Below, in pieces: positions 8,694 to 31,817 of a stretch of DNA of 64,000 nucleotides. Origin of the DNA: Calditrichota bacterium (lineage in GTDB: Bacteria; Zhuqueibacterota; Zhuqueibacteria; Thermofontimicrobiales; Thermofontimicrobiaceae). The notes below the pieces were generated by a model. It did no database searches and was not told where the DNA came from. It saw only the letters and a program-made list of their open reading frames with translations. Where the stretch lies: the NCBI GenBank assembly GCA_013152715.1, contig JAADFU010000190.1:1-64000 (forward strand), in the 5' to 3' direction. Position numbers and translations under genes: made by a program. The first letter of the stretch is position 1; the number at the start of each line of letters is the position of its first letter.

Positions 8694-11480
8694 TTAAAAT
8701 CCTACACTTAAACCGAGCAACACTGAACGTGGCGCACTGAAATTGTAGGGACGCCTTATGAAATCTTGCGTATCGTCCCAATCTGTCGTGGCGTCGGGCA
8801 ACCCGGTATCGCCATAAACAGATAAAACATTTCGTTTATTAAACAGGTTGCTAATATCTGTGTAGGTGATAACCTCAAAGCCATATACCTGGAAAATTCG
8901 CTGTGCTCGCAAATCCACATTCATCGTCCAGGGCATCCTGGCGCTCATTGGTTCGTCGATACGAAGACCGCGCGAAGAAAGCGGCGTGTAAGGCAAACCA
9001 CTGCCATAATTTCCGATGACATTCACGCTCCATTTGCCAGGCTTGCCAAAATCAAGCACAAAATTTATGGTATGCGTCTGATCCCAATCCATGGTGATCA
9101 TTTTCTTTGGCGGATAAGTGCCATAAACTGAGAATGAATACCAATCATTATAATGAGCCGTCACATTAGGAGCGTTGCCTTCCGCTTTGGACAGAGAATA
9201 ATTGATCTGTCCGCCGAAAAAACCAGTAAAACGTTTTTTCAGCGTTATCTCGACGCCTTTAGCGTTTGCATAATCCAAATTGGTGAAACGATGGTATTGC
9301 ACCGGCACGCCCTGATAGCGCTGCAAAGCAACATAATCGTAAATATTTCGAAAATATATCGTGACGTCCAGAGCGACATTCTCTGAGATTTTACTCTCCA
9401 CTCCCAACTCATAAGCGATGGTTTTTTCCGGCTTCAAATTCGCATTTCCCAGCCGCGTATAAATGCCGTTGATCGACATATCCGGAAAGGGGTAATATTG
9501 ATTATCTTGATTCTCCGCATAAAACAGACGAATGTACTGGGGAATCTGATAAAAATGACCATAAGCAAAATGAAGCACCGCTCTGTCCATCACCGGGTGC
9601 GCAAATCCCAATCGCGGGCTGACATACAATTTCTTGTCCGCTTCCACTAAATTCTTGCGTAACTCGCCGGTGAGAGGATCAGTTACATATTCAGCCGTTG
9701 GCTGTCGCGGATCAAAAATATATTTGGACTTGGTATCCATGTAGTCCAGCCGCAAGCCAGCATTCACTACCATGCCCCAGCTTTCAAACTCCATTTTATC
9801 CTGAACGTAAGCCGAGCCTTCGATGGGTTTGTGATGGAATTTCCAGACATCAGGAGCAGCAGAATATGGCGCATACACGTCGTGATAAGACATGTCCACC
9901 TTTTTCACTTCCACGCCCACTTTGATTTGGTGCATTTTATTGGCCTGACTGGTCAAATCGATTTTGCCAGATGTGATGACATTCTCCCGATTTTCCCATT
10001 CAGCGCCGCCGCCTGAGGTGTACGTTGAGTCGGCAGTATCGAAAAAGATGTGGTCGAACTCGTATTCCTCATCAGGCGGAGAAATATTTGCCGCGCCGGT
10101 ATATTGGCCGTTTTCGTTTAATATTTGCCACTCGCCATTTGAATAACCGCTAAAGAAATCTTTTGCTCTGTATTTGTAGTACATGCGATGAGAATTGAAC
10201 ACCGACGCCTTAATTTCATAATAAGTACTCGGCGACAACGTATGCGTAAAAGTGGCGTTGAACATATAGTTGTCGTCGTAATTTGTACCCGTGTTTTGCG
10301 GCACATATTTATTGCCATGAAGATAATTTTTGTACCGTTCGCGCGCGCCAACAGCGCCCAAGGTAAGTTTGATCGCATTGATGGGACGCAAAACTAATTT
10401 CGCGTTTGCGCGACGTTCATGGCGATAAGGCTGCCCGGTCCAACCAAGATAAGTGTTTGTATTATAAGCGTCACCGGAAACGAAAAAAGTATTTTTCTTG
10501 CCCAGCAACGGGATCGGACCTCCCACGTACAAATCTGTGCGGAACCTCCCCCAATCGTCAACTTTCTTGTTGCGCTTTTCCCAGTATGCCGGATCAAATT
10601 TGTTTTGTCCGGGCGTCGCCGGCGCTGTCCCAACGTCAGAGACGAGCGCCGTATCGCCATCCGACACGCGAATCCATTGCCCGTTTCTATTTAACCGCTT
10701 GTAGATATAATTGTATTCGTGCCGGTTCACGTATTTGTCCGTCATCACGCGAATCCGACCATTGTAAGCGCTGCCCCCTTCTTTTGTCACAATGTTGAGC
10801 ACACCAGACATGGCCTCGCCGTATTCGGCATTGAAGGTACCGAGCAAAACAGCCATCTCAGAAATACCAACACTGGTGACGTCGCTTCCCATTCCTCCCA
10901 TTAATGGGTCTTCGACGTAAAAACCATCGATCATGTAAGAAAGTTCTCCGGTTCTCCCTCCGCGCACATTAATCGATCGATTTAAGCCAGTTCCGCGTTC
11001 GATAAATCCGGGCGAAATCGTCATCACTTCCTGATAGCTCAACACAGGAAGCTTATCAATTTGCTCGCCAGTCGTTACTACTGAGGATGAGGTCACGTCC
11101 TTTTCAATCAGCGGCCGCTCAGCAGTGACTTCAACGACCTCCCCTTCAATCACCGTCGATTCAAGTCCAAAGTTAATGCGCGTCGTACGATCGACAATAA
11201 CCTGAACCGATGTCTTGATGATTGACTTGTAGCCAATCATCATCGCTTTTAAATCGTACCGCCCGGGCGGCAGATTGATGATGTAATAATCACCATTTGC
11301 ATCGGTCGCTGCGCCAAAGTTAGTCCCGACAACGATAATATTCGCGCCAATTAATGGCTCTCCAGTCTGTTTATCTTTCACCGTTCCGGCAATCTTGCCG
11401 GTAATACCCCCATAGCACAGAGTGGAGAAAAAGATTCCTGAGACTAGCGTCAGGGCAACAATTAGAATTTTGTTGCGCAT
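8694..11480 (-). CDS. TonB-dependent receptor with carboxypeptidase-regulatory-like domain (module C)
   Basis: 928 residues. A signal peptide (about 1-24) precedes a carboxypeptidase-regulatory-like domain (about 25-115, GKIAGTVKDKQTGEPLIGAN). The plug domain (about 120-235) has the motifs INVRGGRTGELSYMIDGF and GTFNAEYGEAMSGVLNIVT. The C-terminal ~690 residues form the 22-strand-type barrel, ending in an aromatic residue (PRSVLLGLSVGF). Such receptors import or sense large ligands at the outer membrane using TonB energy; the ligand is unknown. SD GGAGG lies 7 nt before the ATG. It is the first gene of its unit, followed 31 nt later by the large secreted protein. In the plug it differs more from the other two receptors than they do from each other (KLPVLSYQ where both others have MPVExF). 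No TonB box was identified with confidence. Confidence 0.93.
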   Translation of the reverse strand: MRNKILIVALTLVSGIFFSTLCYGGITGKIAGTVKDKQTGEPLIGANIIVVGTNFGAATDANGDYYIINLPPGRYDLKAMMIGYKSIIKTSVQVIVDRTTRINFGLESTVIEGEVVEVTAERPLIEKDVTSSSVVTTGEQIDKLPVLSYQEVMTISPGFIERGTGLNRSINVRGGRTGELSYMIDGFYVEDPLMGGMGSDVTSVGISEMAVLLGTFNAEYGEAMSGVLNIVTKEGGSAYNGRIRVMTDKYVNRHEYNYIYKRLNRNGQWIRVSDGDTALVSDVGTAPATPGQNKFDPAYWEKRNKKVDDWGRFRTDLYVGGPIPLLGKKNTFFVSGDAYNTNTYLGWTGQPYRHERRANAKLVLRPINAIKLTLGAVGARERYKNYLHGNKYVPQNTGTNYDDNYMFNATFTHTLSPSTYYEIKASVFNSHRMYYKYRAKDFFSGYSNGEWQILNENGQYTGAANISPPDEEYEFDHIFFDTADSTYTSGGGAEWENRENVITSGKIDLTSQANKMHQIKVGVEVKKVDMSYHDVYAPYSAAPDVWKFHHKPIEGSAYVQDKMEFESWGMVVNAGLRLDYMDTKSKYIFDPRQPTAEYVTDPLTGELRKNLVEADKKLYVSPRLGFAHPVMDRAVLHFAYGHFYQIPQYIRLFYAENQDNQYYPFPDMSINGIYTRLGNANLKPEKTIAYELGVESKISENVALDVTIYFRNIYDYVALQRYQGVPVQYHRFTNLDYANAKGVEITLKKRFTGFFGGQINYSLSKAEGNAPNVTAHYNDWYSFSVYGTYPPKKMITMDWDQTHTINFVLDFGKPGKWSVNVIGNYGSGLPYTPLSSRGLRIDEPMSARMPWTMNVDLRAQRIFQVYGFEVITYTDISNLFNKRNVLSVYGDTGLPDATTDWDDTQDFIRRPYNFSAPRSVLLGLSVGF

Positions 11481-16910: not shown

Positions 16911-19829
16911 TTAAAATGAAAATGCCACGCCTGCCCGGACGCTCCTCGGGGCAGAATAATAATAAGGTCGCAAAAAGTATTCATTCACTGAATTCGGGCC
17001 GGGAGTATCAGTCGTGCGAAATTGCATCAGCGAATAATCTGCGCTTCCGGTATCGGAATAAACGTATCGCTCATTTTGTCGATCAAGTAGATTGTAAATA
17101 TTGCAAAATAAAATAAAGCGAAATCCATCATAATTGATGTTTTTGTGCATACGGACATCCAGGCTATAAGTCGCCGGTTTTCGACCGCTGTTTTGAAATA
17201 CCGTTTGCAGATTCTGAAAACCTTGAACCCCGGAACTGGTCGGAGTATAAGGCAAACCGCTGCCGTATTGTCCTACCAAGCTAATTCCCCAATCGCTGGG
17301 TTTGGAAATGTTCAAAGAAAAATTCACCGTGTGGCGCTGATCCCAATTCAACGGAACCAGTTGTTTTTCCGGCTCTCGGCCTGCTTGATTATCGTAATAA
17401 GCCGTATTCGGGTCTGAAGCGTTGCCTTCAGCTACAGAGTAAGTGTAATCAATGGCTCCCGAAATATAGTTGGAGTATCTTTTTTTGAGGCTCAATGTGA
17501 TGCCTTTGACATTTGCATAATCTCTGTTAATGTAAAGCGCATATATGTCCTGGCTGTAAGTCTTGTAAATTTCAGTGCCCAGCCAATTTCGAATATCTTT
17601 GTAAAAACCGGTAATGTCAATCGCGATGTTCTCCGCTAATTGCTGCTGTAAACCAATTTCGTAACTGACGGTTCTTTGCGGCTTCAAATCGGCGTTTCCC
17701 ATCAAACTGCCCGCCTGACCTGTACTCAGCGCAACTTCAAACTCCGGATTGGCGTAAAGATAGCTATAATTTGGAATTTGCAGAAAATGTCCGTAAGAAA
17801 TATGGATGACCCCGCGGTTAGTGATCGGGTAAGCGATTCCGATTCTCGGACTAATTTGATACTTTGGGGTTGTGCCTTTGAACCAACGTAAATTCCCGCG
17901 AGAAATCGGATTCCCGGTCGTCGTGTCGACCAACGTCACATTAGAAAGATATTGTGCGGATTCCTGCTTCTCCGAATTTAAGACAAGCAAACGGATGGAT
18001 TTATAATTGGCGCTCATCGGCTCGCCGGTATTGGGGTCAATAATTGTCTCCTCGCCGGTAGTAGGATCGATTCGTACCGGCGCTTTCACGCGTTTTGTGC
18101 CCTGATCCGTCACGGCATCCAAAATAGCGTATTTATTGGGCTTCCACAAATTCGGATCCCGGTAGTCAGTGAGAATCTTACCATTGGGATCAAAATATTC
18201 AAAGCGAATGCCAACATTGACGATCATATCCTTCAACTCGATTTTGTCCTGCACATAGCAGGAAAAATCGTGAGGATAATTGGAATAGCGATCATGAGAA
18301 AGAAGCGTCACGTCGGGAATTTGCGGCTCCCAGTTGGTCGATTGATCGATTAAAATACTAAAACTATTCAGAAACAGCTTATTCCAGCGCGCCTGAAGGC
18401 CCGCCTTTACCTGATGAATCTTATTAATTTGACTGGTAATTTCCGCTTTGAGCAAATTCGTCAAAGTAAATCGATCGTAATGCCCAAGACTCATGCCGCC
18501 CATGTAAAAATTATAAACTCCCGCGCGATCAAATCGCTTGTTTGACACATATCTCGCGTCATAGGGATTGGGGAAAACATACGATTTGCCCTGATTATAA
18601 AAATTGGAATACTTCACCGTGTAAAACGTATTCGGGCTTAAAGTTTGCGTCCAGCTTAAAATCTGGCTGATGCCGTTTTTGTAGCTTTTAGATCTGCCAT
18701 CCGGTTCATATTTGAATTTATGAGAATAAGATTGGCCGCGATCCCGTTCATAAAATAAGCTATAGGTTAACTTCATGTTGGGTTTCAGGCTGTAAGCCAG
18801 TTTGAGTTGACTACTGAATCGTCGGCTTTTGCTCATGGGAACAAAATCCCCGTTTCCTGTTTCCTGAATAATCCAATCCGCCGGGTTATCGCCAATATAG
18901 GAATTGGAATCTGCCGCGCTGTAGCGTCGGACGCCGTACAAATAGCCATTATTCTGATAAAGCCTTCCGGACAGGAAAAAGGTGATCTTGTTATCCGAAT
19001 AAACCACAGGCCCACTCAAACTCCATTGATAATCCTGAATGGAAAAAGGATTAATTTCGTCGATATTCAAAAACGTCTCGTCGTGAGCGCTAAAATAATC
19101 GCCGATGTAAGAGCGAATTTCACCGCGATATTTAGTGCCGCCTTCCTTGGTGACGATATTCACCACGCCGGACATTGCCTGACCGTATTCGGCGTTAAAA
19201 GTGCCGCTGACAAGTTCCAGTTCCTGAATAGCGGAATTCTCAACAGTCACCGCCATGCTTGAGGAATACGGGTCTGTCACAGAAACGCCATCCACCATAT
19301 AAGCGACCTCGTTGGAGCGGCCTCCGCGAATATGCATTTCTCCGCCGCTGCCCTGAACGACGCCAGCCTGCAATTGCAGCACCTGATAAAAATTTTCCAC
19401 GGGCATTTTCTGAATCTCCTGCGCTCCGATAATTGCCCGGCTTGAGGTAATATCTTTTTGGATGAGTGGCCTTTTGGCGACGATTGTCACTTCTTTGCCC
19501 ATATCGAGGACTGTTGTCTTGAGCGAAAAATTTACGGTCGTCGTCAAATTGACGCTCACACGCACGTTGGTCACGCGCATCGCCCCATATCCGATCATCA
19601 TCGCTTTTAAACTATAAGTCCCCGGCGGAACATTGATGATAACAAAATTACCATCCATGTCCGTCGCCGCGCCCAGATTGGTCCCTTCAATGATGACATT
19701 TGCGCCCGGAAGCGGCTGATTAGTATCGCCATCTACCACTGCGCCGGTTATTTTCCCGGTCGTTCCAGCGAAAACAATAGAAACGGATAATAATAACAGC
19801 AAAATACTTAGTGCACTTTTCCGTTGCAT
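16911..19829 (-). CDS. TonB-dependent receptor with carboxypeptidase-regulatory-like domain (module B)
   Basis: 972 residues: signal peptide (about 1-22), carboxypeptidase-regulatory-like domain (about 23-112, GKITGAVVDGDTNQPLPGAN), plug (about 118-232, MHIRGGRSNEVAYMVDGVSV and GTFNAEYGQAMSGVVNIVT), then the barrel ending PRSVRAGVAFSF. It is closest to the module A receptor, sharing KRPLIQKDITS-type and NADLKPQ-type motifs and the phrase YEIGLQQQ. It has a receptor-specific loop insertion at about residues 575-650 containing repeated Thr/Asp/Gly turns (DPTTGEETIIDPNTGEP). SD AGGAG lies 7 nt before the ATG. It lies 77 nt upstream of its large secreted partner and 26 nt downstream of the small barrel gene. 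The ligand is unknown. Confidence 0.93.
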   Translation of the reverse strand: MQRKSALSILLLLLSVSIVFAGTTGKITGAVVDGDTNQPLPGANVIIEGTNLGAATDMDGNFVIINVPPGTYSLKAMMIGYGAMRVTNVRVSVNLTTTVNFSLKTTVLDMGKEVTIVAKRPLIQKDITSSRAIIGAQEIQKMPVENFYQVLQLQAGVVQGSGGEMHIRGGRSNEVAYMVDGVSVTDPYSSSMAVTVENSAIQELELVSGTFNAEYGQAMSGVVNIVTKEGGTKYRGEIRSYIGDYFSAHDETFLNIDEINPFSIQDYQWSLSGPVVYSDNKITFFLSGRLYQNNGYLYGVRRYSAADSNSYIGDNPADWIIQETGNGDFVPMSKSRRFSSQLKLAYSLKPNMKLTYSLFYERDRGQSYSHKFKYEPDGRSKSYKNGISQILSWTQTLSPNTFYTVKYSNFYNQGKSYVFPNPYDARYVSNKRFDRAGVYNFYMGGMSLGHYDRFTLTNLLKAEITSQINKIHQVKAGLQARWNKLFLNSFSILIDQSTNWEPQIPDVTLLSHDRYSNYPHDFSCYVQDKIELKDMIVNVGIRFEYFDPNGKILTDYRDPNLWKPNKYAILDAVTDQGTKRVKAPVRIDPTTGEETIIDPNTGEPMSANYKSIRLLVLNSEKQESAQYLSNVTLVDTTTGNPISRGNLRWFKGTTPKYQISPRIGIAYPITNRGVIHISYGHFLQIPNYSYLYANPEFEVALSTGQAGSLMGNADLKPQRTVSYEIGLQQQLAENIAIDITGFYKDIRNWLGTEIYKTYSQDIYALYINRDYANVKGITLSLKKRYSNYISGAIDYTYSVAEGNASDPNTAYYDNQAGREPEKQLVPLNWDQRHTVNFSLNISKPSDWGISLVGQYGSGLPYTPTSSGVQGFQNLQTVFQNSGRKPATYSLDVRMHKNINYDGFRFILFCNIYNLLDRQNERYVYSDTGSADYSLMQFRTTDTPGPNSVNEYFLRPYYYSAPRSVRAGVAFSF

Positions 19830-19855: not shown

Positions 19856-20932
19856 TTAAAATGACAATCCAATTCCGCCTTTAATCATCAGCCCGCTGTA
19901 ATCAAGTTCTTTAACTTTGAGATTATCAAATGCGGATTCCGGAATATCAAAGTAATACTTCCTGTCTTCAGAATACGTCACGTCAAAATCAGGCGGTTGC
20001 CTGCCTTCGACCTTGACGATGGGACTAAACTTTCTCGTAAAGAATGACCAATCATCTTCTTTGAGTTTTGCTTTAGCAAAATTGTAACCCACTTCAAAAT
20101 TCAGACTCACAATTCCGAATCTAATGTTTGTCCCGGCAGAGACTTGAAAACTGAAAGGATTTGCATTCGCCTGAATATTGCTGATAATATTTAATGATAA
20201 TGGATTGGGCGTAATTGACAAAGAATCCCAGACCGCATCGCCCCGGGATTGGTTCAATCCGTAATTGTCAATAATTTCAGCTTTTATTTTGGAAAAATTA
20301 AAGCCCACGCCGGCGCCGCCATACAGCTCAAAATTATCAGGCCAAGGGGAGATTGGCAAATTGAAATTCATCGCTAAAATCGTCGGATAAATTTCCAGCT
20401 TCTGCGCGACAGTGATGCGATCCTGAACCTGATATTCGTAATTAGGCCAAGAACTTTCTTTCCCCTGATTCTCAGCAGAAAACGCACTGCTGGCTTCACT
20501 TTTAAATCGAGCGACAGAAAATGACAGGTTCAGATTTTTCGTAAAGAAATAGCGCGCGCCAAAATGGTACATCATATCCGAAGAAATATACTTTTCGCCC
20601 CCGGAAGCAAGATCATACCCGCCCAGATCCAGATAACCTGACTCCAAATCAGTCAAATTCCCGTCTTTAACTATTTGGAAATGATGCAGAGAGAGAGCGC
20701 CAGTCGCCTGAAGATTTGCATTGAAAGCCTTGAAACTGTCAGACCATTTCTGCAAAGATGGTTTGAAGTAACCGACGCCAGCGAACAGCTCGAAACGTTC
20801 GCTAACTTTGACCGCCGAGCGTCTGCCAGACAATAAATTCTGTAAGCCCGTTGAAAGAGGAGGGGTTCCATAGACCAGACCCGTTGATATTAAACAACTC
20901 ACAACCAGCCAGAAAATTCCTTTTCGTATCAT
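19856..20932 (-). CDS. Outer-membrane beta-barrel protein, family not recognised
   Basis: 358 residues with a signal peptide (about 1-22, ending VYG). The body alternates polar and hydrophobic residues typical of a barrel (RFELFAGVGYFKPSL, YHFGARYFFTKNLNLSFSVARF, LNFEVGYNFAKAKL) and ends LMIKGGIGLSF with a terminal Phe, the usual outer-membrane insertion signal. It has no PorV signature, so it is not a fourth PorV copy. It may be an OmpW/OmpA-barrel-like protein but I cannot place it. It is the only gene that breaks the receptor-cargo-PorV pattern, lying between modules A and B and co-directional with both (79 nt after the module A PorV gene, 26 nt before the module B receptor). SD AAGGA lies 5 nt before the ATG. 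Confidence 0.8.
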   Translation of the reverse strand: MIRKGIFWLVVSCLISTGLVYGTPPLSTGLQNLLSGRRSAVKVSERFELFAGVGYFKPSLQKWSDSFKAFNANLQATGALSLHHFQIVKDGNLTDLESGYLDLGGYDLASGGEKYISSDMMYHFGARYFFTKNLNLSFSVARFKSEASSAFSAENQGKESSWPNYEYQVQDRITVAQKLEIYPTILAMNFNLPISPWPDNFELYGGAGVGFNFSKIKAEIIDNYGLNQSRGDAVWDSLSITPNPLSLNIISNIQANANPFSFQVSAGTNIRFGIVSLNFEVGYNFAKAKLKEDDWSFFTRKFSPIVKVEGRQPPDFDVTYSEDRKYYFDIPESAFDNLKVKELDYSGLMIKGGIGLSF

Positions 20933-21011: not shown

Positions 21012-22061
21012 TCAAAATTCCACGCTCAAAGAAAACCGTTGCGTATTTTGCAGGCGTCCAAAATCAGCAAATGCGTAATCCAATTTGAGCGTCAATCCGC
21101 GAGAGAACTCATACTGTACGCCGACTCCGACATTCGACGGCATGAAATTGCTGCTGCCCTCGCCGGAAAAAACGCCGCCGCGCTCACTGTCATCCAAAAA
21201 CAGCGCTTGCCAGCCCAGACGAATAAATCCCCAATCATAGAACGAATATTCCATTCCCAAATTTACGTACTCGGAATTATCGCTCGGATGAAGCGCGTCC
21301 ACCGCAACCATCAATGCATTGTTTTCAGTTCGAAACGCATCCATGGCAACGCCGACGCGAAAAGTGATGGGTAGAGACCAGGGATCCATTTGCAACTGCG
21401 ATGGGAGTTGGTCATTGCTGCCATTGGCGTTGGGGTTAATGTCAATGTATTCCTTGGCGTCGCGACCAGCCATTTTCATCTTCGGGCCAAAATTCGCAAT
21501 GCTCATGCCAATGGTCATCCCGTTAAATTGCGTTTTAAAAAGCGTACCCACGTCCACGGCGAAACCATTGGAAGACATGTGCCAAATGTTTTGTCTGATG
21601 TACTTGACGTTGAAACCGATGGAAAAACGGTCTGTGAGACTTTTAGCGTAGGCGATGCTTCCGGCAATATCGCTGGCGGAAAATAATTCGCCCGTACCTT
21701 CCGGCTGGAGCTCGGTGCGCACTTTCATCTCGCCCATAGTGACAGAAGTAACGCTCACGCCCAGGGCGCCCAAAGAACCCATATCGACCACCAAGCCGGC
21801 GTAGTCAAAACTAACACCTGCCAACCACTCGCTGTGCATGAGTATGGCTTCATTGCGCCCCAGCCGACTCAAGCCGGCCGGATTCCAGTATAAAGCAGAC
21901 ACATCGTTCGCCACGGCGACAAAAGCGCCACCCATTCCGACTGCTCGGGAACCGACACCGATTTTCAGAAACTGCGCCGCAGTGGTTCCGACCTTGGAAA
22001 CGCCGAAACTTAAAGAGACCGAGAGCAGCAACGCGATCAGTATGAAAATTATCTTTTTCAT
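21012..22061 (-). CDS. PorV/PorQ-family outer-membrane beta-barrel protein (module A)
   Basis: 349 residues: a signal peptide (about 1-20), then KVGTTAAQFLKIGVGSRAVG, MGGAFVAVANDVSALYWNPAG and a barrel ending RFSLSVEF. It is near-colinear with the module B copy, sharing the GEMxVRT, ARNLTDRFSIGFNxKxI-type and LRNxGRxQNxQRFSL-type stretches. Compared with module B it has an extra loop near residue 295 (DDSERGGVFSGEGSSN). SD AGGAG lies 7 nt before the ATG. It lies 46 nt downstream of the large secreted protein of module A. A role as a T9SS-type shuttle is inference. Confidence 0.88.
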   Translation of the reverse strand: MKKIIFILIALLLSVSLSFGVSKVGTTAAQFLKIGVGSRAVGMGGAFVAVANDVSALYWNPAGLSRLGRNEAILMHSEWLAGVSFDYAGLVVDMGSLGALGVSVTSVTMGEMKVRTELQPEGTGELFSASDIAGSIAYAKSLTDRFSIGFNVKYIRQNIWHMSSNGFAVDVGTLFKTQFNGMTIGMSIANFGPKMKMAGRDAKEYIDINPNANGSNDQLPSQLQMDPWSLPITFRVGVAMDAFRTENNALMVAVDALHPSDNSEYVNLGMEYSFYDWGFIRLGWQALFLDDSERGGVFSGEGSSNFMPSNVGVGVQYEFSRGLTLKLDYAFADFGRLQNTQRFSLSVEF

Positions 22062-22107: not shown

Positions 22108-25100
22108 TTACTTTATCACCGCAAACTTCCCGATGAATTCACCGACGCCCGGCGCATCCACATGATAAAGATAAATACCATAAGCAACATCCATTTGGTC
22201 TTTGGAAAGTAAATTCCAGGACTCAGAGCCGTCTTCAAAAGGACTGTCATGGTACAACGTCCTTACCAATTCACCGGTGAGTGTATAAATGCGAACAGTG
22301 CATTTCGCCGGCAAATGGATGAAATAGAGCAACCGATCTCCGCGTCCGGAAATCAGATTTGGCTTGATTTCAAATTCCGAAGCTGCTACGTACGGATTCG
22401 GGACAACGGCGATATTCTTAAGCATCGATCTCGCCCTTTTCGGCTCAATGTACGATCTTTTCGTAGTGAAACTGTAAACATCTTTGTTTGTGAACGGTTT
22501 CTTCGTATGAATAAGAAAGATGTCGCCGGGTTCCGGCGGAACTTTTTCCACAAAAATAGTATCGACAGGAATTCTTATTTTTTCACCTTCCTTATCATAA
22601 ACTGCGTAACCGTCTGCAGTCAGTGAATCGACCAACACAATGCTGTCCCGCGGCGCCATAAATCTCGCCTGCCAGGTACCACGCGGACGATTGTTGAGCA
22701 TTATGATCGGAAAGAGAATATCGCCGTTGGAAATTGCAGAATCCTTATCCGCATCCTGAAAAACAAATTGCGCCTCGGTGCTGTCCGTTACATTCAAAAC
22801 ATAAAATTTGCACGGTTTTTTATTGTAAGAAATCGTGGCAACCGTATCAGTGAGCACGATCCAATAATCATAAGGCACTTCAATTCCCTGATTGGGATAC
22901 TTGCCAACGGCCACATTGTAATTGCTATTCCCCTTGATGAATCCGGTTCCCTTGTAATCAATTGTTAACGGATCATTTTTCACTAAAATTCGGAATCCAT
23001 CAACGAACGGATTGTTATCTGTCCCATCGACATAAGGAGAATTTGCAATCAAATAATATTGATATTTAACATAATAAAGCTGATCGACAGGCATTTGATC
23101 CGTATCCTTGATGACAACCCACCCTTTCGCCGGATTCAATTCAAACAGACTGGTGTCACGGGGGAATTTGTAGGAACTATCAGCGTTGAAAACTTCAAAA
23201 TACGCGTTATCAATAGTATTCGGATGCGACAGCTTAAGTGTCGCCCATCTGACAGAGTCAACTGGCATCGGCGGGACAACTGTCGTATCCCATTTGGTAT
23301 ATTCATAACGAATTGTCACCGGGAGCAATTCAGCGACTTGCACACTGGCATCCCACAAATTAAATGTCGTCCCTTCCGATTCGCTGCTATCAAAAACAAC
23401 TTTGTAAATATGATTGTCTTTAACTTTGTCCGGGTCCAGAAAAGAAATGTCGATTTTGCCTGTCGCCGGGCCCACGTGATCTATTTTTTCGTTTTCCACA
23501 GTAGGAGGTACGTAACCGGCAGCAGGAGCCTGCGGGGTAACGATCGCGGTGTTTACTGTCGGTAGATAATTGCCGGAAAATGGCGGGTATTCATCAAATT
23601 CCCAGGGACATTCCGTGGGGGCAATATCAACGGAATCGCCGTGATCAAAAGAAACGACAGCGTAGTAATAAGTCTGGCCGTTGGTAACCGTCGTGTCAAC
23701 CCAGGAATGGCGCAAAGCCGAAGTATCATCTTTTCCCATGAAAAAATGAATTCCATTTTCCGTTTCCACGGGATGGGGACCGAACCAACCATCTCCGGGC
23801 ATATTGAATTGAGCAATGGGCTTGTACAATGTCGGATTTCCCTGAGCGTCTGTAATGACATAGGCATCGCTCAATCCCGGGTCTGTGCCACGATAAATAT
23901 TGTACCCCTCAAAATCGTAGCCTTGAATCGGATCGCGGGAGTGTTCGGCGAAGGAGTCCCAATAAAGCGTTACCCGACCGTCTTTGGCGACCGCTGTTAC
24001 TTTTGGTTTTTCCGGCGCTTTGGTGAAGCGATAGCCTTCGTTGTAAATTCTCTGCACCGTTGCTGCGCTGCGGAACAAGTCATCTACGTCGTAGCCAAAA
24101 AACAATGTAATGGAAAAACGTCGTTTGTCACCAGGCCCCATCTTGATCGGACCTGAGCCGTACTGGAATACATTATCCTTAGGCGTTGCCAAATCGGTAG
24201 TGTCAAACACTCCGGAAACCATTTTCGCCCATGTCGCCTCGTCCTGCGCTGGCGTCATACTTGCGTATTCATACACAGCAAAAGAAGTCAACCCAATCTG
24301 GTCGGCTTCGTCGAGATCAGTTTCATCAAAATTTGGCTCGCCATGCGTCGGGATGCCGTCTTTTTCGCCGTAATCCCATTCTTCATTCCCATCTTGGATA
24401 CCGTTTCGATTGGCATCCGCATCTATGCCGTCAGCGCCAACGTCGTCAACTTCAGGATCCCAGTCATGATCATTGTCAATATTATCTTGCATGGATTCGT
24501 CAACTAATCCGTCCTCATCATTATCAATATTATCATAAGGCTCGCCGGGACTCTCCAAATATTTGTACGCCAAATACCCGGGCCGCCAGGCATTAGGTCT
24601 ACCACGGAAATCTTTGTCCCAGGCATAAACCATGTCGTATTTCGTATCCCAGGCGCCAACATCATCATCGTAATCAGATGATCCGCCGATATGCGGATCG
24701 CCGTACATTCCTAAATATACTTTTTGCAGCGTATCAGCGCCCACATTTTTGACATTGTAGATAAAAAAGATACAATCCTGCGCCAATGTTTGGTGCCACT
24801 GATAGCCCCGAGATTCGACTTCCACTCCTACACCGCGCCGATCAGGCTCTGCTATCGGATTCGGGAAAAAAGCAAACTCAGCATTGGCAGCATCATCCAT
24901 AATAAAATAACTTTCCTGGTCAGCAGTCGAAGCATCCAATCCATATTCAGCAATCCAATGACCGTCCCAATTAGAAGGACGATTAGGCCAACTATTAGGC
25001 CATGTCGATTTATCATCGCTCATAGCAATGGATGGCTGCTCAAAGCGCGCGTAGCCGGGTAATGGTTCAAAGCCCCAGGGCAAGCCGGAAGGAGACGTGT

Positions 25101-25497
25101 CTCCGCCATAATCCAAACCTTCGGAAATGATGTGCCTTCTCATGCCGGTTGTGTCAAAAACTTCCGCAGCAATCAAAACGCCAAATTCATAGCCATAATC
25201 ATATCCGAATCCTTTGGGCCAGACGAGAGAAGCGCGATTACCGGGCTGACCAATAGTCCCGTAATTGTAAAATACCGTGGAAACCTGATTACCATTGTGG
25301 ATTCCTTCCTTGCGCCAATCGTGATCGCCCAATAGCATTTTTCTGAGTTGCGTTTGCTGTCTGCGGTATTCCTGCCAGACCTCCGGCGGATCGGATTTTT
25401 TGGGATAAGGCGGAAGCGGATTCTGCGCCAATCCCACAAAAAGAGTTGCGCTCAACAGCAGCAGCAATATTCCCGCTAAAAATCTTTTCAAAGTCAT
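22108..25497 (-). CDS. Very large secreted protein with Asp-rich segment, FN3-like domain and sorting-like C-terminus (module A cargo)
   Basis: 1129 residues, paralogous along its length to the module B cargo; function not recognised. Signal peptide about 1-24. EGIHNGNQVSTVFYNYG at about residues 64-80 matches the module B protein. The Asp-rich, calcium-loop-like segment is at about 321-399 (NIDNDEDGLVDESMQDNIDN, GIDADANRNG) and ends in EADQIGLTSF, as in module B. The FN3-like unit is at about 465-590 (GRVTLYWDSFAEHSRDP to QTYYYAVVSFDHGD). The last 104 residues start LKNIAVVPNPY and end FIGKFAVIK. An SD-like GGGAGA lies about 9 nt before the ATG. It is second in the operon, 78 nt after the module A receptor. 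Confidence 0.82.
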   Translation of the reverse strand: MTLKRFLAGILLLLLSATLFVGLAQNPLPPYPKKSDPPEVWQEYRRQQTQLRKMLLGDHDWRKEGIHNGNQVSTVFYNYGTIGQPGNRASLVWPKGFGYDYGYEFGVLIAAEVFDTTGMRRHIISEGLDYGGDTSPSGLPWGFEPLPGYARFEQPSIAMSDDKSTWPNSWPNRPSNWDGHWIAEYGLDASTADQESYFIMDDAANAEFAFFPNPIAEPDRRGVGVEVESRGYQWHQTLAQDCIFFIYNVKNVGADTLQKVYLGMYGDPHIGGSSDYDDDVGAWDTKYDMVYAWDKDFRGRPNAWRPGYLAYKYLESPGEPYDNIDNDEDGLVDESMQDNIDNDHDWDPEVDDVGADGIDADANRNGIQDGNEEWDYGEKDGIPTHGEPNFDETDLDEADQIGLTSFAVYEYASMTPAQDEATWAKMVSGVFDTTDLATPKDNVFQYGSGPIKMGPGDKRRFSITLFFGYDVDDLFRSAATVQRIYNEGYRFTKAPEKPKVTAVAKDGRVTLYWDSFAEHSRDPIQGYDFEGYNIYRGTDPGLSDAYVITDAQGNPTLYKPIAQFNMPGDGWFGPHPVETENGIHFFMGKDDTSALRHSWVDTTVTNGQTYYYAVVSFDHGDSVDIAPTECPWEFDEYPPFSGNYLPTVNTAIVTPQAPAAGYVPPTVENEKIDHVGPATGKIDISFLDPDKVKDNHIYKVVFDSSESEGTTFNLWDASVQVAELLPVTIRYEYTKWDTTVVPPMPVDSVRWATLKLSHPNTIDNAYFEVFNADSSYKFPRDTSLFELNPAKGWVVIKDTDQMPVDQLYYVKYQYYLIANSPYVDGTDNNPFVDGFRILVKNDPLTIDYKGTGFIKGNSNYNVAVGKYPNQGIEVPYDYWIVLTDTVATISYNKKPCKFYVLNVTDSTEAQFVFQDADKDSAISNGDILFPIIMLNNRPRGTWQARFMAPRDSIVLVDSLTADGYAVYDKEGEKIRIPVDTIFVEKVPPEPGDIFLIHTKKPFTNKDVYSFTTKRSYIEPKRARSMLKNIAVVPNPYVAASEFEIKPNLISGRGDRLLYFIHLPAKCTVRIYTLTGELVRTLYHDSPFEDGSESWNLLSKDQMDVAYGIYLYHVDAPGVGEFIGKFAVIK

Positions 25498-25575: not shown

Positions 25576-28476
25576 TTAAAAACCAAATGACATGCCCAAT
25601 CTCACTGAACGCGGCGAAGAATAATAATTAGGACGGGTCAAATAATCTTTCAAATAATGACGTCCATATTCGTCGCCATGATCGGTACTCGGATAAAGCG
25701 CATAAGTTGCTCTTCCCGTATCAGAATAGATTAATATCTCATTCAAGCGATCAAAAAGATTGTACACTTTAATAAAAAGCGTGGCGTAGCGATTGTTGGA
25801 AAAATAAAAATCTTTGTGCGCCTGAAGATCAAAGGTCATCTGCGACGGTCTGCGCTCGCTATTCTCAGCGTCAATCCGAATCGCATCGCGCGAGGGTGTG
25901 TATGGCAAGCCCGATCCCATTCTGCCGATCAGACTGATTCCCCATTTTTTCGCCTGGCTGACCGTCACTGTGAAATTCAAAGTATGGGTTTGATCCCAGT
26001 CCAGTGGCACAACCCTTTTTTCAGTTTCCACCGGCGGAATACTTTGCAAATCATAAAATTTTGAAAGAGGATTAGAGGAATTTCCCTCGGCGACAGAATA
26101 GGTATAGTCCAGAGAACCTGATAAATACCCTGAACGACGCTTTTCAATAGAGAGAGTAAAACCTTTGACATTTCCAAAATCAAGCGTCGCGTAACGGTTG
26201 TAATAATCACCGCGAGTGTAAAGCTCGAAAACCTCGGTTCCCAGCCAATCGTTGATATCTTTGTAAAAAGCGATAGCCTCAATTCCGATATCGTCAGATA
26301 CCTGCTGCTGCAGGCCGATTTCGTAAATGACGGTTTGCTGGGGTTTTAAATCTGCATTTCCTAACACAGATTTAAAACGTCCGCTGACGACCTCAAACTC
26401 GGGATTCGCATACAAGTACGCGAACGGAGGCATCTGGAAAAAATGACCGTACGAAAAATGAATTGTTCCGCGGTCAGTAATGGGATAGGCTATTCCCAAT
26501 CGTGGACTCAATTGATTCTTTGCCGTCGCATTTTTTAATTTTAATTCAGCCAACGATTCTCTTTTGCCGGCGATCAGCAAACGATCCTTGTTATCGGCCG
26601 CAACTTTCCAATTTGAATTAAAATAGTCGTAGCGCAAGCCGATATTGATGATCATGTCTTTCAATTCAATTTTATCCTGAATGTAGGCGGCAAATTCGCG
26701 AGGATAGCGGTTGTACATATTATTGGAAGTGCTGGTTTCCGGCGTGTGAATTGTCGGAACCCAGCCATAAGTTTCGCTAATATCAATATAGTAGCTATGA
26801 TAGAAAAGCTCATGGTAGCGACCTTCAAAACCCAGTTTCACCTGGTGGTGCTTATTCACTTGGCTTGTCAGATCGAATCGAAGCACAGAAGTTTTGGAAT
26901 TCCGATACGTATGGGTTTTATTCATGCCGCCGCCATAAAATTCATTCCCCGGGGTACTGGAAATGAGAATATTTGGCAAATAGCGCGGATCCTGCCAGTC
27001 TTTGTACAGATATCGCTTATAATCATTCTCGTAGTGAGCAAATTTTACCTCATAAAACGTGCTTCGAGATATTTGATGCGTAAAATCCAGTTTATGAGTC
27101 AGTGACCACTGATAGGTCGTCGGAATGCCGTCGGGGTTGTATTTGTAAATATGGCTATAACTTCTGTTTTTTATTTTGTCATAAAGAGTTGTGTAACGAA
27201 AAATAAATTGGGGGCTGAGACGAAAAGTAATTTTCGCCTGACCGGAAAACTTCCGATACGGGTTCATTGGGACTAATTTGTTATCTCCGCTGAATCCGGT
27301 ATCCCAGAGGCCATTACCGTTCAGATCCTCGAAAGGCTCGGTTTCCGTATAGTAACCGTTTCCGTCGAGATCTTCAAAAGGCTCACCAGGTTGATACTGG
27401 CCATCACCATTGATGTCTGTGAATGGCTCCCCTAAATCAAACTGCCCATTTTTATTTCTATCTGTGAACGGTTCCAGAAAATGAATCCGGCCATCATTGT
27501 AAGGGCTTTGCGCCAGGGATCTGGCAGAAGCCGGTTCTACAAAAATTGCATCCCCTGGATTGTGCTCCCGTTTTCCGTAAAGGTATCCCTTCTCATTATA
27601 ATATCTCCCGGAAGCAAAGAAAGTAACTTTGTTCCCCAATGTCGGTACGGGGCCATTCAAACTGACGTCAAAATTTGTTTGGCTGAGCGGATTGACGTCC
27701 TCGATATTCAGAAAAATATCTTTGTGCGTACTCACGCGATCGCCAAAGTAAGTGGTAAAATTGCCGTGATAATCTTTTCCGCCTTCTTTCGTGACAATAT
27801 TGACGATGCCGGACATCGCTTTTCCGTATTCAGCATTAAACGTCCCGCTGACGACCTGTAACTCTTGAATCGCTGTATTTTCAATAACTGCGGACATACC
27901 ACCCCAGAAAGGATTGGACATGGCAATACCATCAATCAAGTAGGCGATTTCATTGGAACGACCGCCACGAATATGAATAGCGCCGTTCGAGCCCGTCGTG
28001 ATACCTGCTTTTGTTGACAATACGCCGCGGAATGTTTCCACAGGCATTTCTTTAATTTCCTCTGAGGTGATCACAGAGCGCCCGGAAGTCAAATCTTTTT
28101 GAACAATAGGCCTTTTGGCAACAATCTCGACAACCGCGCCCAAATCCAGAACAGCAGAGCTAAGTGCAAAGTTGACCTCAGTGGTCAGACCCACTTTTAC
28201 CAGCACTCCAGTTTTCAACACCGGGCCGTATCCCATCATGTTCGCCTTGACGCTATAAACGCCGGGCGGAATATTGATGATGTAATACGAACCGTCGAGG
28301 CCTGTGGACGCCCCCAGAGTCGTGCCTTCGATCATGACGTTCACCCCTGGCAAAGGATCGCCTGTTTCTGCATCTTTGACGTAACCGGCAATTTTACCGG
28401 TGATCCCGGCCCAGGATGTCGTCAGCACAAAAAGGCAGAAGATTAAAATCATTAATAGAATTTTTTTGCTCGACAA
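25576..28476 (-). CDS. TonB-dependent receptor with four tandem calcium-loop-like repeats (module A)
   Basis: 966 residues starting at TTG: SD GGAGGA lies 5 nt before it and a signal peptide (about 1-23) follows, so TTG is preferred over the in-frame ATG at 28452. Next come the carboxypeptidase-regulatory-like domain (about 24-112), the plug (about 118-232, IHIRGGRSNEIAYLIDGIAM, GTFNAEYGKAMSGIVNIVT) and the barrel, ending PRSVRLGMSFGF. In an early barrel loop, residues 335-394 hold four perfect 15-residue repeats (EPFTDRNKNGQFDLG-type) absent from the two sister receptors. This is the first gene of the long operon; its promoter lies back to back with that of the divergent FG-GAP gene. The ligand is unknown. 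Confidence 0.93.
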   Translation of the reverse strand: MSSKKILLMILIFCLFVLTTSWAGITGKIAGYVKDAETGDPLPGVNVMIEGTTLGASTGLDGSYYIINIPPGVYSVKANMMGYGPVLKTGVLVKVGLTTEVNFALSSAVLDLGAVVEIVAKRPIVQKDLTSGRSVITSEEIKEMPVETFRGVLSTKAGITTGSNGAIHIRGGRSNEIAYLIDGIAMSNPFWGGMSAVIENTAIQELQVVSGTFNAEYGKAMSGIVNIVTKEGGKDYHGNFTTYFGDRVSTHKDIFLNIEDVNPLSQTNFDVSLNGPVPTLGNKVTFFASGRYYNEKGYLYGKREHNPGDAIFVEPASARSLAQSPYNDGRIHFLEPFTDRNKNGQFDLGEPFTDINGDGQYQPGEPFEDLDGNGYYTETEPFEDLNGNGLWDTGFSGDNKLVPMNPYRKFSGQAKITFRLSPQFIFRYTTLYDKIKNRSYSHIYKYNPDGIPTTYQWSLTHKLDFTHQISRSTFYEVKFAHYENDYKRYLYKDWQDPRYLPNILISSTPGNEFYGGGMNKTHTYRNSKTSVLRFDLTSQVNKHHQVKLGFEGRYHELFYHSYYIDISETYGWVPTIHTPETSTSNNMYNRYPREFAAYIQDKIELKDMIINIGLRYDYFNSNWKVAADNKDRLLIAGKRESLAELKLKNATAKNQLSPRLGIAYPITDRGTIHFSYGHFFQMPPFAYLYANPEFEVVSGRFKSVLGNADLKPQQTVIYEIGLQQQVSDDIGIEAIAFYKDINDWLGTEVFELYTRGDYYNRYATLDFGNVKGFTLSIEKRRSGYLSGSLDYTYSVAEGNSSNPLSKFYDLQSIPPVETEKRVVPLDWDQTHTLNFTVTVSQAKKWGISLIGRMGSGLPYTPSRDAIRIDAENSERRPSQMTFDLQAHKDFYFSNNRYATLFIKVYNLFDRLNEILIYSDTGRATYALYPSTDHGDEYGRHYLKDYLTRPNYYSSPRSVRLGMSFGF
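27295..27474 (-). repeat. Four 45-bp tandem coding repeats (15-residue Asp/Asn/Gly calcium-loop units)
   Basis: Residues 335-394 of the module A receptor are four contiguous 15-residue units of the form E-P-F-(T/E)-D-x-(N/D)-x-(N/D)-G-x-(F/Y/W)-x-x-x. The D-x-N-x-D/N-G core resembles EF-hand, dockerin or thrombospondin type 3 calcium loops. Calcium binding is inferred from this pattern only. Confidence 0.85.
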
Positions 28477-28862: not shown

Positions 28863-31817
28863 ATGCATCGAAACAAGCTACTAATTGTTACCATGATGCT
28901 GCTGCTAGTTGTATCGTACACGCTTTTTGCAGCAGAAGAAGGTGAAAACAAATTTAATCTCACGTGGTCATCCGACAAACTCGACTTTCCTAACGGTATT
29001 CCTTACACACTGTGGGCAACGCGAACTTTGCCGGATTTTGACGGCAACGGCAGAAATGAAATTTTCTGTGCTGCTGACGACCCGGTACAGGGCGCCTGGT
29101 ATTTCGTCGTGGAAGCCGACGCCAATGACAATTACAAAGTTGTCTGGTATTCCTACATCGACGAATGTACCTACAGCTATGTCCTCTTCGCCACAAGTCC
29201 TGACGCGGATCTCGATGGCGACGGATTACCCGAATTGATTGCAGGCGTTGCCCAGCCCACAGGCCCGGCACCTCCAGGCATTTGGATTTGGGAAAAAGAT
29301 ACCACCATCACTGATGGCTTTCCTTTTCCTATGGGGCCTGAAAACGCAACAACCTATGACGTAAATGGTCTCGGCGGCAGCATTTCCTGTATTTTTGCCG
29401 CAAATGTGGACACTGATCCGAACACGGAATTGATCATCGGCGAAACACGCGAAGATATCGTTTGGGTCGTGGAAGAAACCGGCGGAGATCTCAGTTTCCC
29501 GATTTTTGAAACCGAATACACCGATACATTGAAATACAGCCCCTGGGGATTTGCTTACGGCGATATGGACAACGACGGCCTGGGCGATTTCGCGGTGGGA
29601 ACATCCGATTACAACAGCATTCGTATCTACGAATGCAGCGGAGAGGAAGACAGTTACACAAAATACCCGGAGTTGCACATGTCTCGCGATGTCGATGGCT
29701 ACTGCCTGCGCGGTATGGGCGCCCGCGACATCAACGGCGATGGTTTAGCAGAATTAATTTACGCCAGAAGAAGTAGCCCAGGGAAAATTTTCATCGTTAC
29801 CAACCCAGGCGAATTAAGCCTAATTGATTCGACAAATGTCCATGAAATCTGGGTAAATCCGGACGGCGGGAATCTGACCGGTTTGGCTTACGGCGATATT
29901 GATCACGGCTTTGGATCAGATGGTCCCGATTTAATTTTTGCCGCTTCCGGTAATTATTTGATGGACCTGGAATACACTGGACCTCGCGGTGAAACTGCTG
30001 ATCCGAATGCTCCAGGCGATCCCGCAAATTGGGATGCTTACACAATTTACACCGATACAACCCAGAGAATGCAGCACATGTGCGTGAGCGATTTCGACCG
30101 CGATGGCGAAGACGAAGTAGCGCTCATCTACAGCGGTAGCGGCGACGAGCACTATCTGCGCATTATTGAACACGAATATCTGCCCGACGCTGGCTTTAGC
30201 ATAATGTGGCACGATAGTCCGGACACAGACCTGACTGTCGATCCGGTGCATTCAAATCCGCGCGGTATTTTTGCCGGCTCCGACGTTGATCAGGACGGCA
30301 AACCCGAAATTGCTTGTACAGAATACAACGGTAAATTCCACGTTTACGAAGTTGTCGATGACAACACTGTGGAATGGGTGTACTCATACAAACCAGGCGC
30401 TCCGGCTTCCGGCTCCAGCCCCCGCGACATCAAAGTAAGCGATGTGGATGGAAATGGGTTGGATGAATTCGTCATGCTTATGGGCGGAACCGATATTTCT
30501 GCCAATCCGGACAGTATCGGCTTCTATTTCTTTGAATGGGACGGATCTACGGATAATGGTTTTGGAATCGACGGCGGGCCTACCTATATTTTGCCTGCTG
30601 GTCAAATCGATTCTCGTCTGACTGCTTGCAACAGGACTGAAGGTATCTGGGTCGAAGATGTTGATCAAGACGGGCATCAGGAAGTGCTCTGGCCTTCCGA
30701 CGCTGGCGGTACATCCGGCGATGGTCTGTACATTTTCTCCTGTATCGACGGTGAACTGACTGGTTTCCCGACCTGGTTGGTTGAATTAGCTCAGCATCGC
30801 GCTTCCGGAGAATGTACCGGATCACCGAAAATGGCGCGCGTCGCTGACATCAATGGTAATGGCCAAAAGGAAGCCATTTTCACTACCTGGAATAACGGAC
30901 AGCTTTCTATTTTCGAAGCCACTGCTCCCGACACCTACGATGAGACTGTCTTTTTGGCAGATAAAACAATGACAGACGAAGTCGTTTATAAAGGTCTCGG
31001 CGTTGCCGATGTTGATGGCAACGGCGACGATGAATTGATTTTCAATTCTTACTGGAACGCGACCATTTATCTGGTTAATTCCCCAGCGAATATTCATGAC
31101 CTTGACATTACCAATCCCGATCATTATGCCTTTTTGCGCGACGACGCAGGCGGTAGTGGACTTACTGGCGATGTTGGTGATCTCAACGGCGACGGAAATC
31201 CTGAATTCTATTTCACGCTTTACGCTCGCGGCGCAGTTCGCAGCCTGGAATACAACGGCGGCGGAGCAGACATGATGGCGCAGTCCAGTTGGACAATGAA
31301 AGAAGTATTCGCCGATCGCGATTTTGTCTATGGCGACTATTACAGCAATGGCGTTCTGACTGCAGTTCATGGATCATTCGGAATTATGGTGCCGCATGCG
31401 GATCTGGATGGTGACGGCAATCAGGAAATCGTGACCTCGATGATTGAATCGCCCTATTCAAATTCCTGGCTCTATGTTTTTGAATACACTGGCGGTACCG
31501 GCGTCACCGAACACAAATATCGCATCATCACTCCTAACGACTACAAACTGGCACAAAACTTCCCGAACCCGTTCAACCCGACGACGACGATCGACTACAC
31601 TCTCCCGTTGGACAAGAACGTGACCATTCGCATTTACAATTTGCAGGGTCAGGAAGTAAGAACTCTGGTGGATGACAAATACCAGGCTGCCGGTACGCAT
31701 CGGGCTATCTGGGATGCGACGGACAATTTCGGTCATCGCGTAGCCACTGGCAATTACATTTACAGCCTCGAAGTTGGCAACGTGAAAGTGACCAAGATGA
31801 TGACGTTATTGAAATAG
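28863..31817 (+). CDS. FG-GAP/VCBS-repeat surface protein with canonical T9SS type A sorting domain
   Basis: 984 residues. A signal peptide (about 1-23, ending LFAAEE) is followed by about twelve FG-GAP-type calcium loops of the form D-x-(D/N)-x-D/N-G-x-x-(E/D) (DFDGNGRNEI, DLDGDGLPEL, DVDQDGKPEI, DINGNGQKEA, DLNGDGNPEF and others), predicting an integrin-alpha-like propeller arrangement. The last ~90 residues are a textbook type A sorting domain: KLAQNFPNPFNPTTTI, then VTIRIYNLQGQEVRTL, ending VTKMMTLLK. The protein is therefore predicted to be exported by a type IX system and displayed or released at the surface. The binding target is unknown. It is the only plus-strand gene between 3 and 64 kb, is transcribed from a consensus promoter, and ends at its own terminator. 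Confidence 0.92.
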   Translation: MHRNKLLIVTMMLLLVVSYTLFAAEEGENKFNLTWSSDKLDFPNGIPYTLWATRTLPDFDGNGRNEIFCAADDPVQGAWYFVVEADANDNYKVVWYSYIDECTYSYVLFATSPDADLDGDGLPELIAGVAQPTGPAPPGIWIWEKDTTITDGFPFPMGPENATTYDVNGLGGSISCIFAANVDTDPNTELIIGETREDIVWVVEETGGDLSFPIFETEYTDTLKYSPWGFAYGDMDNDGLGDFAVGTSDYNSIRIYECSGEEDSYTKYPELHMSRDVDGYCLRGMGARDINGDGLAELIYARRSSPGKIFIVTNPGELSLIDSTNVHEIWVNPDGGNLTGLAYGDIDHGFGSDGPDLIFAASGNYLMDLEYTGPRGETADPNAPGDPANWDAYTIYTDTTQRMQHMCVSDFDRDGEDEVALIYSGSGDEHYLRIIEHEYLPDAGFSIMWHDSPDTDLTVDPVHSNPRGIFAGSDVDQDGKPEIACTEYNGKFHVYEVVDDNTVEWVYSYKPGAPASGSSPRDIKVSDVDGNGLDEFVMLMGGTDISANPDSIGFYFFEWDGSTDNGFGIDGGPTYILPAGQIDSRLTACNRTEGIWVEDVDQDGHQEVLWPSDAGGTSGDGLYIFSCIDGELTGFPTWLVELAQHRASGECTGSPKMARVADINGNGQKEAIFTTWNNGQLSIFEATAPDTYDETVFLADKTMTDEVVYKGLGVADVDGNGDDELIFNSYWNATIYLVNSPANIHDLDITNPDHYAFLRDDAGGSGLTGDVGDLNGDGNPEFYFTLYARGAVRSLEYNGGGADMMAQSSWTMKEVFADRDFVYGDYYSNGVLTAVHGSFGIMVPHADLDGDGNQEIVTSMIESPYSNSWLYVFEYTGGTGVTEHKYRIITPNDYKLAQNFPNPFNPTTTIDYTLPLDKNVTIRIYNLQGQEVRTLVDDKYQAAGTHRAIWDATDNFGHRVATGNYIYSLEVGNVKVTKMMTLLK

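Follow-up and report, generated by a model that had tools for sequence, protein, structure and literature searches.

A recurrent chain of EF-type loops in an extracellular loop of a TonB-dependent receptor from a Calditrichota bacterium, a putative calcium staple

The locus described here raises the question of what a chain of calcium-loop-like repeats does inside a TonB-dependent receptor. The window, i.e., the whole 64,000-nucleotide stretch of DNA that was analyzed (contig JAADFU010000190.1 of a Calditrichota bacterium, positions 1 to 64,000), carries on its minus strand, at 25576..28476, the receptor gene of module A, hereafter recA (966 aa, TTG start as listed, stop codon included). Pfam profiles show that the product has a plug and a TonB barrel besides a CarboxypepD_reg domain, and identify it as a TonB-dependent receptor (PF07715, 43.6 bits with a cut-off of 23.9; PF00593, 108.8 bits with a cut-off of 27), while its score against the SusC/RagA subfamily model TIGR04056 (51.1 bits) lies far below the curated cut-off of 368.25. 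A sequence-only reading of the window had pointed to four perfect 15-residue repeats in recA and had taken them for a calcium-stiffened extracellular arm. Our analysis revealed that this array (27295..27474, minus strand, residues 335-394) is genuine, that its chain of EF-type loops is conserved and that such arrays recur in some TonB receptors in this region of the tree; most likely it is a calcium staple, though a putative one, of loop L2, which is extracellular in the model.

Both the coordinates and the period had been read correctly, as the four units begin at residues 335, 350, 365 and 380, are contiguous and measure exactly 15 residues each. The word "perfect" holds for the period and fails for the sequence, since any two units share only 6-9 of 15 residues and 44-62% of bases. 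Counted from the core Asp, the register of a unit is D1-x-N/D3-x-N/D5-G6-x-aromatic8-x9-x-x-E12-P-F-x-D1', so each unit comprises an EF-type loop and a P-F-x linker, and E12 is the first residue of the following unit. The cores are thus calcium-loop-like, as had been proposed: the side-chain ligands at positions 1, 3, 5 and 12 are present in three of the four units, and Asp occupies position 9 in two of the four. Unit 1 (EPFTDRNKNGQFDLG, 27430..27474, minus strand as are all features of recA given below) has the complete EF ligand set, with D339, N341, N343, G344 and D347 joined by E350 of the next unit. Unit 2 (EPFTDINGDGQYQPG, 27385..27429) offers D354, N356, D358, G359 and E365, with Q362 at position 9, and unit 3 (EPFEDLDGNGYYTET, 27340..27384) offers D369, D371, N373, G374 and E380, with T377 at position 9. 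Unit 4 (EPFEDLNGNGLWDTG, 27295..27339) has D384, N386, N388, G389 and D392, and F395 at position 12 in place of a Glu ligand. It is followed by a cap, F395-S-G-D398 (27283..27294), which belongs to a motif GF[ST]GD present in nine out of nine members of the recA clade that were examined; D398 is invariant in eight aligned sequences and could be a substitute ligand for unit 4. The same eight sequences also share E335, D339, N341, N343, G344, D347 and E350 without exception, though the invariance of the unit 1 ligands is that of the first unit as aligned, and a repeat alignment can slip by one unit.

The register is neither a chance product nor a reading of the wrong strand. Among 20,000 shuffles of recA, 1,334 contained at least one Dx[DN]x[DN]G core and none contained two cores 15 residues apart, and frame 1 of the plus strand over the array interval gives a different reading that contains a stop. 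The array is strongly acidic (15 Asp/Glu and 2 Lys/Arg in 60 residues). When 82 units from 23 arrays were tallied, an aromatic residue stood two positions before D1 in 77, position 8 was aromatic in 62, position 9 was Asp in 57 and position 12 was Glu in 50; D1, N/D3 and N/D/S5 were demanded by the pattern used to search for units and therefore count as no evidence in this tally. These loops are not EF-hands in the strict sense, since residues 335-394 are free of helix in both structure models described below and the helix-loop-helix is hence absent. The proposed likeness to dockerins and thrombospondin type 3 repeats found no significant profile match. Each of the EF-hand family PF00036 (E 0.037) and the dockerin type I family PF00404 (E 0.07) matched only one of the 23 arrays, in neither case that of the window; thrombospondin type 3 repeats were absent from the six Pfam families matched by the 23 arrays at E up to 0.1; and the window array itself gave only sub-threshold matches in Pfam.

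A comparison of recA with its counterpart in genome G001 (89% identical) gave a proportion of changed nonsynonymous sites (pN) of 0.067 in the array and 0.055 in the rest of the protein, and a proportion of changed synonymous sites (pS) of 1.06 and 0.70, respectively; since synonymous sites are saturated, no dN/dS ratio is given for the array. The array has been kept as protein while its DNA turned over. That the array arose by recent tandem duplication of its DNA was considered and rejected: Tandem Repeats Finder at its default score found no repeat anywhere in the window, and the units differ at 38-56% of their bases. These figures also bear on the idea that the array is an acidic, metal-free spacer that changes by repeat slippage and has inherited its EF-like register without function. 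A unit number that ranges from two to six within the clade, the missing E12 of unit 4 and a degree of conservation no better than that of the rest of the receptor would all suit such a spacer. However, the extent of base difference between units means that slippage is not recent, protein change with respect to G001 is low at saturated synonymous sites, and the unit 1 ligands are invariant in the eight aligned sequences, which makes this explanation unlikely, if the least so among the alternatives to a calcium staple.

The position of the array was examined in an AlphaFold2 model of the whole receptor, built on an alignment of 18 receptors (mean pLDDT 75.2, pTM 0.71, several later loops with pLDDT below 50). 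The model has 22 barrel strands, in which turns of 2-5 residues alternate with long loops, all the long ones on one side. In the model the array is extracellular and lies in L2 (27259..27591, residues 296-406, 111 residues, delimited by AlphaFold2 secondary structure) between strands b3 (281-295) and b4 (407-421), i.e., neither in the periplasm nor in the barrel wall, in agreement with the earlier proposal. The pLDDT of the array, averaged per ten residues, is 72-82 in this model; in a second model, which covers the segment by itself and was built on the 23 arrays, it is 81-86 for residues 336-385 and 72 for 386-395. Both models contain single-residue bridges at F337, F352, F367 and F382, which repeat the 15-residue period, and also at residue 393. 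A short strand at the array base, I332-H-F334 (27475..27483), belongs to an R[IL]xF motif that shifts relative to the units in orthologs. The shape of an "arm" is uncertain, as pairing of strands 332-334 and 401-403 may seal the base of the array. A Foldseek search with the whole model retrieved TonB receptors, including BtuB with calcium (1nqg, 1nqh).

As the sequence-only reading had stated, the sister receptors of the window, recB (16911..19829, minus strand) and recC (8694..11480, minus strand), have no such insert: the stretch aligned with L2 is 111 residues long in recA, 41 in recB and 10 in recC. In eight of the nine clade members, for which it was measured, the stretch comes to 80, 110-111 and 142 residues with two, four and six units, and in the ten receptors of that alignment outside these eight it has 10-56. 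A separate observation is that recA and recB form a mosaic, being 56% identical over residues 22-310, 52% over 647-966 and 36% in the middle, as if the ends had been exchanged or the middle diversified.

The search for similar repeats in other TonB receptors, which had been suggested as a check, was successful, and the insert is not a one-off. The array matched at E up to 0.001 in 33 of 99 genomes (its own included), and in 31 of 33 short matched loci the unit lies in an open frame that matches the receptor profile; the exceptions are L004 and L011, and the L011 protein resembles the receptor over 67 residues, as seen in the same gene in L052. The nearest named relative among the matches listed is candidate division KSB1 MAG 4484_87, with a receptor 89% identical. 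The genome of the window has 33 plug-domain places, and array searches find units in three of them, namely recA and two on contig C18; a fourth array match is a cargo-type protein on C100. A query with an idealized consensus matched 46 of 82 genomes, but it drew in proteins with another linker as well, and this count was not used. In a tree of 96 receptors, made by a quick method without bootstrap and leaving out L102 and L103 as repeats of L034 and L036, the nine complete members of the recA clade, all of which have two or more exact cores, group together (SH-aLRT 100), and four changes are needed to account for the 16 rows with at least two cores. L060 in genome G023, 67% identical, is a probable tenth clade member that stands outside the tree and the counts; its contig ends right after the array, possibly owing to a repeat-related assembly break. 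We also noticed five frames of 735-778 residues (L182:1589-3922, L183, L184, L189 and L190) that hold EF-type loops with another linker (DVDGDGKLDPNEDVNGNGILDPGED in L182) and have ends that, judged by eye, look like sorting tails.

Counted by register, the arrays of the clade have four units in the window, G001, G008, G056, G049 and L104, six in G007, and two in G013 and G018. The R[IL]xF motif stands before the first unit in the window, G001, G008, G013 and G018 and after the second unit in G007, G056 and G049, and it thus splits the arrays into blocks of 0+4, 0+2, 2+4 and 2+2 units; L104 has an altered version of the motif. Even numbers would be in keeping with paired EF loops, which we regard as a lead. 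A length that varies while the barrel is conserved, in a part that is surface-exposed in the model, would also be expected of a shield or decoy against phages, bacteriocins or proteases, its unit number being set by an arms race. However, the unit sequences are conserved and not diversified, and, judged by sequence conservation, we consider such a role very improbable.

To see where cores sit across receptors, 59 rows of a joint alignment with at least two cores were reduced to 29 by removing rows that share core context, and the cores were placed by alignment to the recA model. Among 127 cores in these 29 receptors, which were picked for holding cores (the test hence speaks on core placement and not on core frequency), 111 map to extracellular loops (L1 8, L2 36, L3 10, L4 42, L5 5, L6 10) and 16 to strands b5-b7, the latter in rows only 30-39% identical to recA, where the alignment is unsure. 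None of the 127 cores maps to the plug, the N-terminal domain or the periplasmic turns, while loops make up about 40% of the residues in these rows and plug plus N-terminal domain 23%. The EPF linker is missing from some cores, and L017, L022, L023, L029 and L032 also hold Asp-rich cores of another kind. The main sites of arrays are L2 in the recA clade, L5 in L041 and L044, L6 in L168 and L173, L1 in the C18 type and L4 in L008, L010, L021 and L026, the L1 and L4 placements resting on alignments of 30-37% identity. These locations point to several origins. Two other receptors, L047:7430-8005 (G088) and L053:3238-3696 (G082), carry nine and seven cores in longer, less regular clusters that map mostly to L4; both genomes are labeled only as "same domain".

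Which known systems the array resembles was asked with a profile of the arrays searched against sequences of solved structures. The best matches were 3vdz (E 0.009) and 2ojr (E 0.034), both ubiquitin entries, which we take to be engineered double lanthanide-binding tags. In the matched segments two EF loops stand at a pitch of 15 residues, and the tags share with the array the aromatic residue two before D1 and the acidic position 12; they differ in being designed, fused to ubiquitin and linked without proline, and they are not relatives of the array. On the sequences, we read this as a likeness of design and claim no kinship. The published single lanthanide tag is given as YIDTNNDGWYEGDELLA and calcium-binding proteins are described as its starting point (PMC12548334). 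A sequence search with only the window array as query returned five matches, the best at E 0.39, and four of these were calmodulin or derived from calmodulin.

The tag-like matches, with the same pitch and aromatic position, raise the thought that the array captures metal, concentrating calcium, a lanthanide or a metal complex that the barrel would then take up; furthermore, a TonB-dependent receptor has been named with the lanthanide-linked gene sets of methylotrophs in one report (PMC9260416). Several observations speak against capture: (i) 1jfj, a conventional calcium-binding protein of the EF-hand type, reaches the same E value (0.034) as the second tag entry; (ii) none of the four units has the Pro at EF-loop position 2 that is a lanmodulin-type mark, this position being R340, I355, L370 and L385; (iii) the companion genes encode a cargo and a PorV-like protein, not a metal system; and (iv) the genome has no PQQ alcohol dehydrogenase above the cut-off (best 34.4 vs 480 bits), although 14 control genomes also had none and this family does not separate calcium from lanthanide enzymes. 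Capture is, in our estimation, a distinctly improbable function. A broader idea is that the arrays are natural counterparts of the double lanthanide tag, a reusable cassette of 15-residue EF loops, added in pairs and installed independently by bacteria of KSB1 and neighboring phyla in four or more of the extracellular loops of TonB receptors, as a calcium staple or as a multi-site antenna for a hard metal ion, rare earths included; we offer it as a rather unlikely conjecture.

A calcium-structured chain of this general kind would have precedents. In BtuB, the cobalamin transporter of Escherichia coli, calcium has been suggested to limit L2, and ligand affinity is stated to be 1000-fold lower at sub-saturating calcium (PMC7360065). 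Thus, BtuB provides a precedent for a calcium-ordered L2 in a TonB receptor, although there, as described, two calcium ions sit in a cage of five aspartates, unlike the tandem EF loops of recA (PMC7360065). BamM of Flavobacterium johnsoniae, a surface protein of a Bacteroidota outer-membrane complex, is reported to have a C-terminal domain without well-defined secondary structure, partly structured by seven metal ions assigned as calcium (PMC12611786). It is similar to the array in being metal-structured without defined secondary structure and differs in being a subunit of the BAM complex and not a receptor loop; no chain named BamM was among the ten matches of the array profile, its presence in the searched library being unconfirmed. 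Calcium loops with the same linear motif as the array, Dx[DN]xDG, are described outside EF-hands in numerous contexts that are unrelated to one another, some of which lack flanking secondary structure (PMC3123361), and the main text of that paper contains neither "TonB" nor "outer membrane". Among the literature matches listed, no title or start of an abstract dealt with EF-loop arrays in TonB-receptor loops, which is weak evidence of novelty as subscription journals are mostly uncovered.

These findings led us to hypothesize that the array is probably a helix-less chain of EF loops that folds on Ca2+ and stiffens L2. Each unit would offer D1, N/D3, N/D5, a backbone carbonyl at position 7 and, in three of four units, E12 to the metal, and the aromatic residues two before D1 and at position 8 could pack between neighboring units. 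Calcium in many natural waters is often millimolar. At such levels the sites would stay filled, so calcium would act as a structural staple, folding an acidic 60-residue segment into a compact, stiff element. Such an element would shape the mouth of the barrel and might thereby affect ligand binding or which surface partner fits, and lineages would tune the size of the array by gain and loss of units, with even numbers in the clade members seen.

Several points weigh against a calcium staple. E12 is missing from unit 4, and position 9 is Q in unit 2 and T in unit 3. The model of the isolated array has a pTM of 0.47 only, and Foldseek found no solved structure similar to it. The best match among solved sequences, at E 0.009, is too weak for kinship. 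Conservation of the array does not exceed that of the rest of recA (pN 0.067 vs 0.055), and at least two exact cores occur in only eight of the best 80 of at least 574 confirmed named relatives. The receptors used for the mapping of cores were selected for having them and the distant ones align poorly, the even unit numbers rest on about six lineages, and an effect of the array on transport is pure inference.

The remaining explanation concerns the neighboring gene. The next gene after recA encodes cargoA (22108..25497, minus strand, 1129 aa), which has no Pfam match and whose Asp-rich segment, mentioned already in the sequence-only reading, is real and contains two cores. The earlier suggestion was that the array possibly docks this cargo. 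In such docking, shared calcium and Asp-rich segments would hold the secreted cargo, and the position of the cargo gene next to the receptor in L034-L040 would fit it. Across 94 pairs, however, array and cargo cores do not go together: Asp-rich cores were present in 68 of 73 cargoes beside arrayless receptors vs 15 of 21 beside array receptors (Fisher p 0.014, opposite in direction to docking). In this test, the cargo was taken as the longest frame of 450 residues or more that encodes no receptor and starts between -250 and +600 bases from the receptor end, an array receptor was one with at least two cores, and L102 and L103 were left out. Because cargo cores are commoner beside arrayless receptors, docking through shared Asp-rich segments finds no support, and we regard it as quite improbable.

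Downstream of cargoA lies porA (21012..22061, minus strand), a PorV/PorQ family protein (NF033709, 220.5 bits vs a cut-off of 90), and the order receptor, cargo, PorV-like protein is kept in L035-L040; in L034 the cargo is also next to the receptor and the locus ends there. The C terminus of cargoA is weakly like type IX sorting tails, and its residues 1023-1113 match the NCBIfam PorU model with 14 bits (E 0.0069), far below the cut-off of 420. A SprA_N protein above the family cut-off is encoded in the genome, in line with a type IX system. Divergent from recA, on the plus strand at 28863-31817, is a gene for a 984-residue FG-GAP protein with 13 Asp-rich cores; in L034 and L035 a similar protein is likewise encoded divergently, and in L037 and L040 one is encoded upstream with the same orientation. 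Between modules A and B, at 19856-20932, lies a gene for a 358-residue protein that has no NCBIfam match above cut-off and has counterparts with 31-33% identity at the same place in L035 and L036.

Taken as a whole, the locus suggests that the transporter mouths of some bacteria may be shaped by metal-binding repeats. Should the arrays bind calcium, poorly studied phyla would possess a set of TonB receptors whose extracellular mouths depend on calcium, which would bear on how such receptors are expressed, assayed and modeled. The unit itself also provides a natural template for metal-binding tags that are short, have several sites and need no helix, and if the arrays do grow in pairs of units, they would be a clear-cut example of modular evolution in receptor loops.

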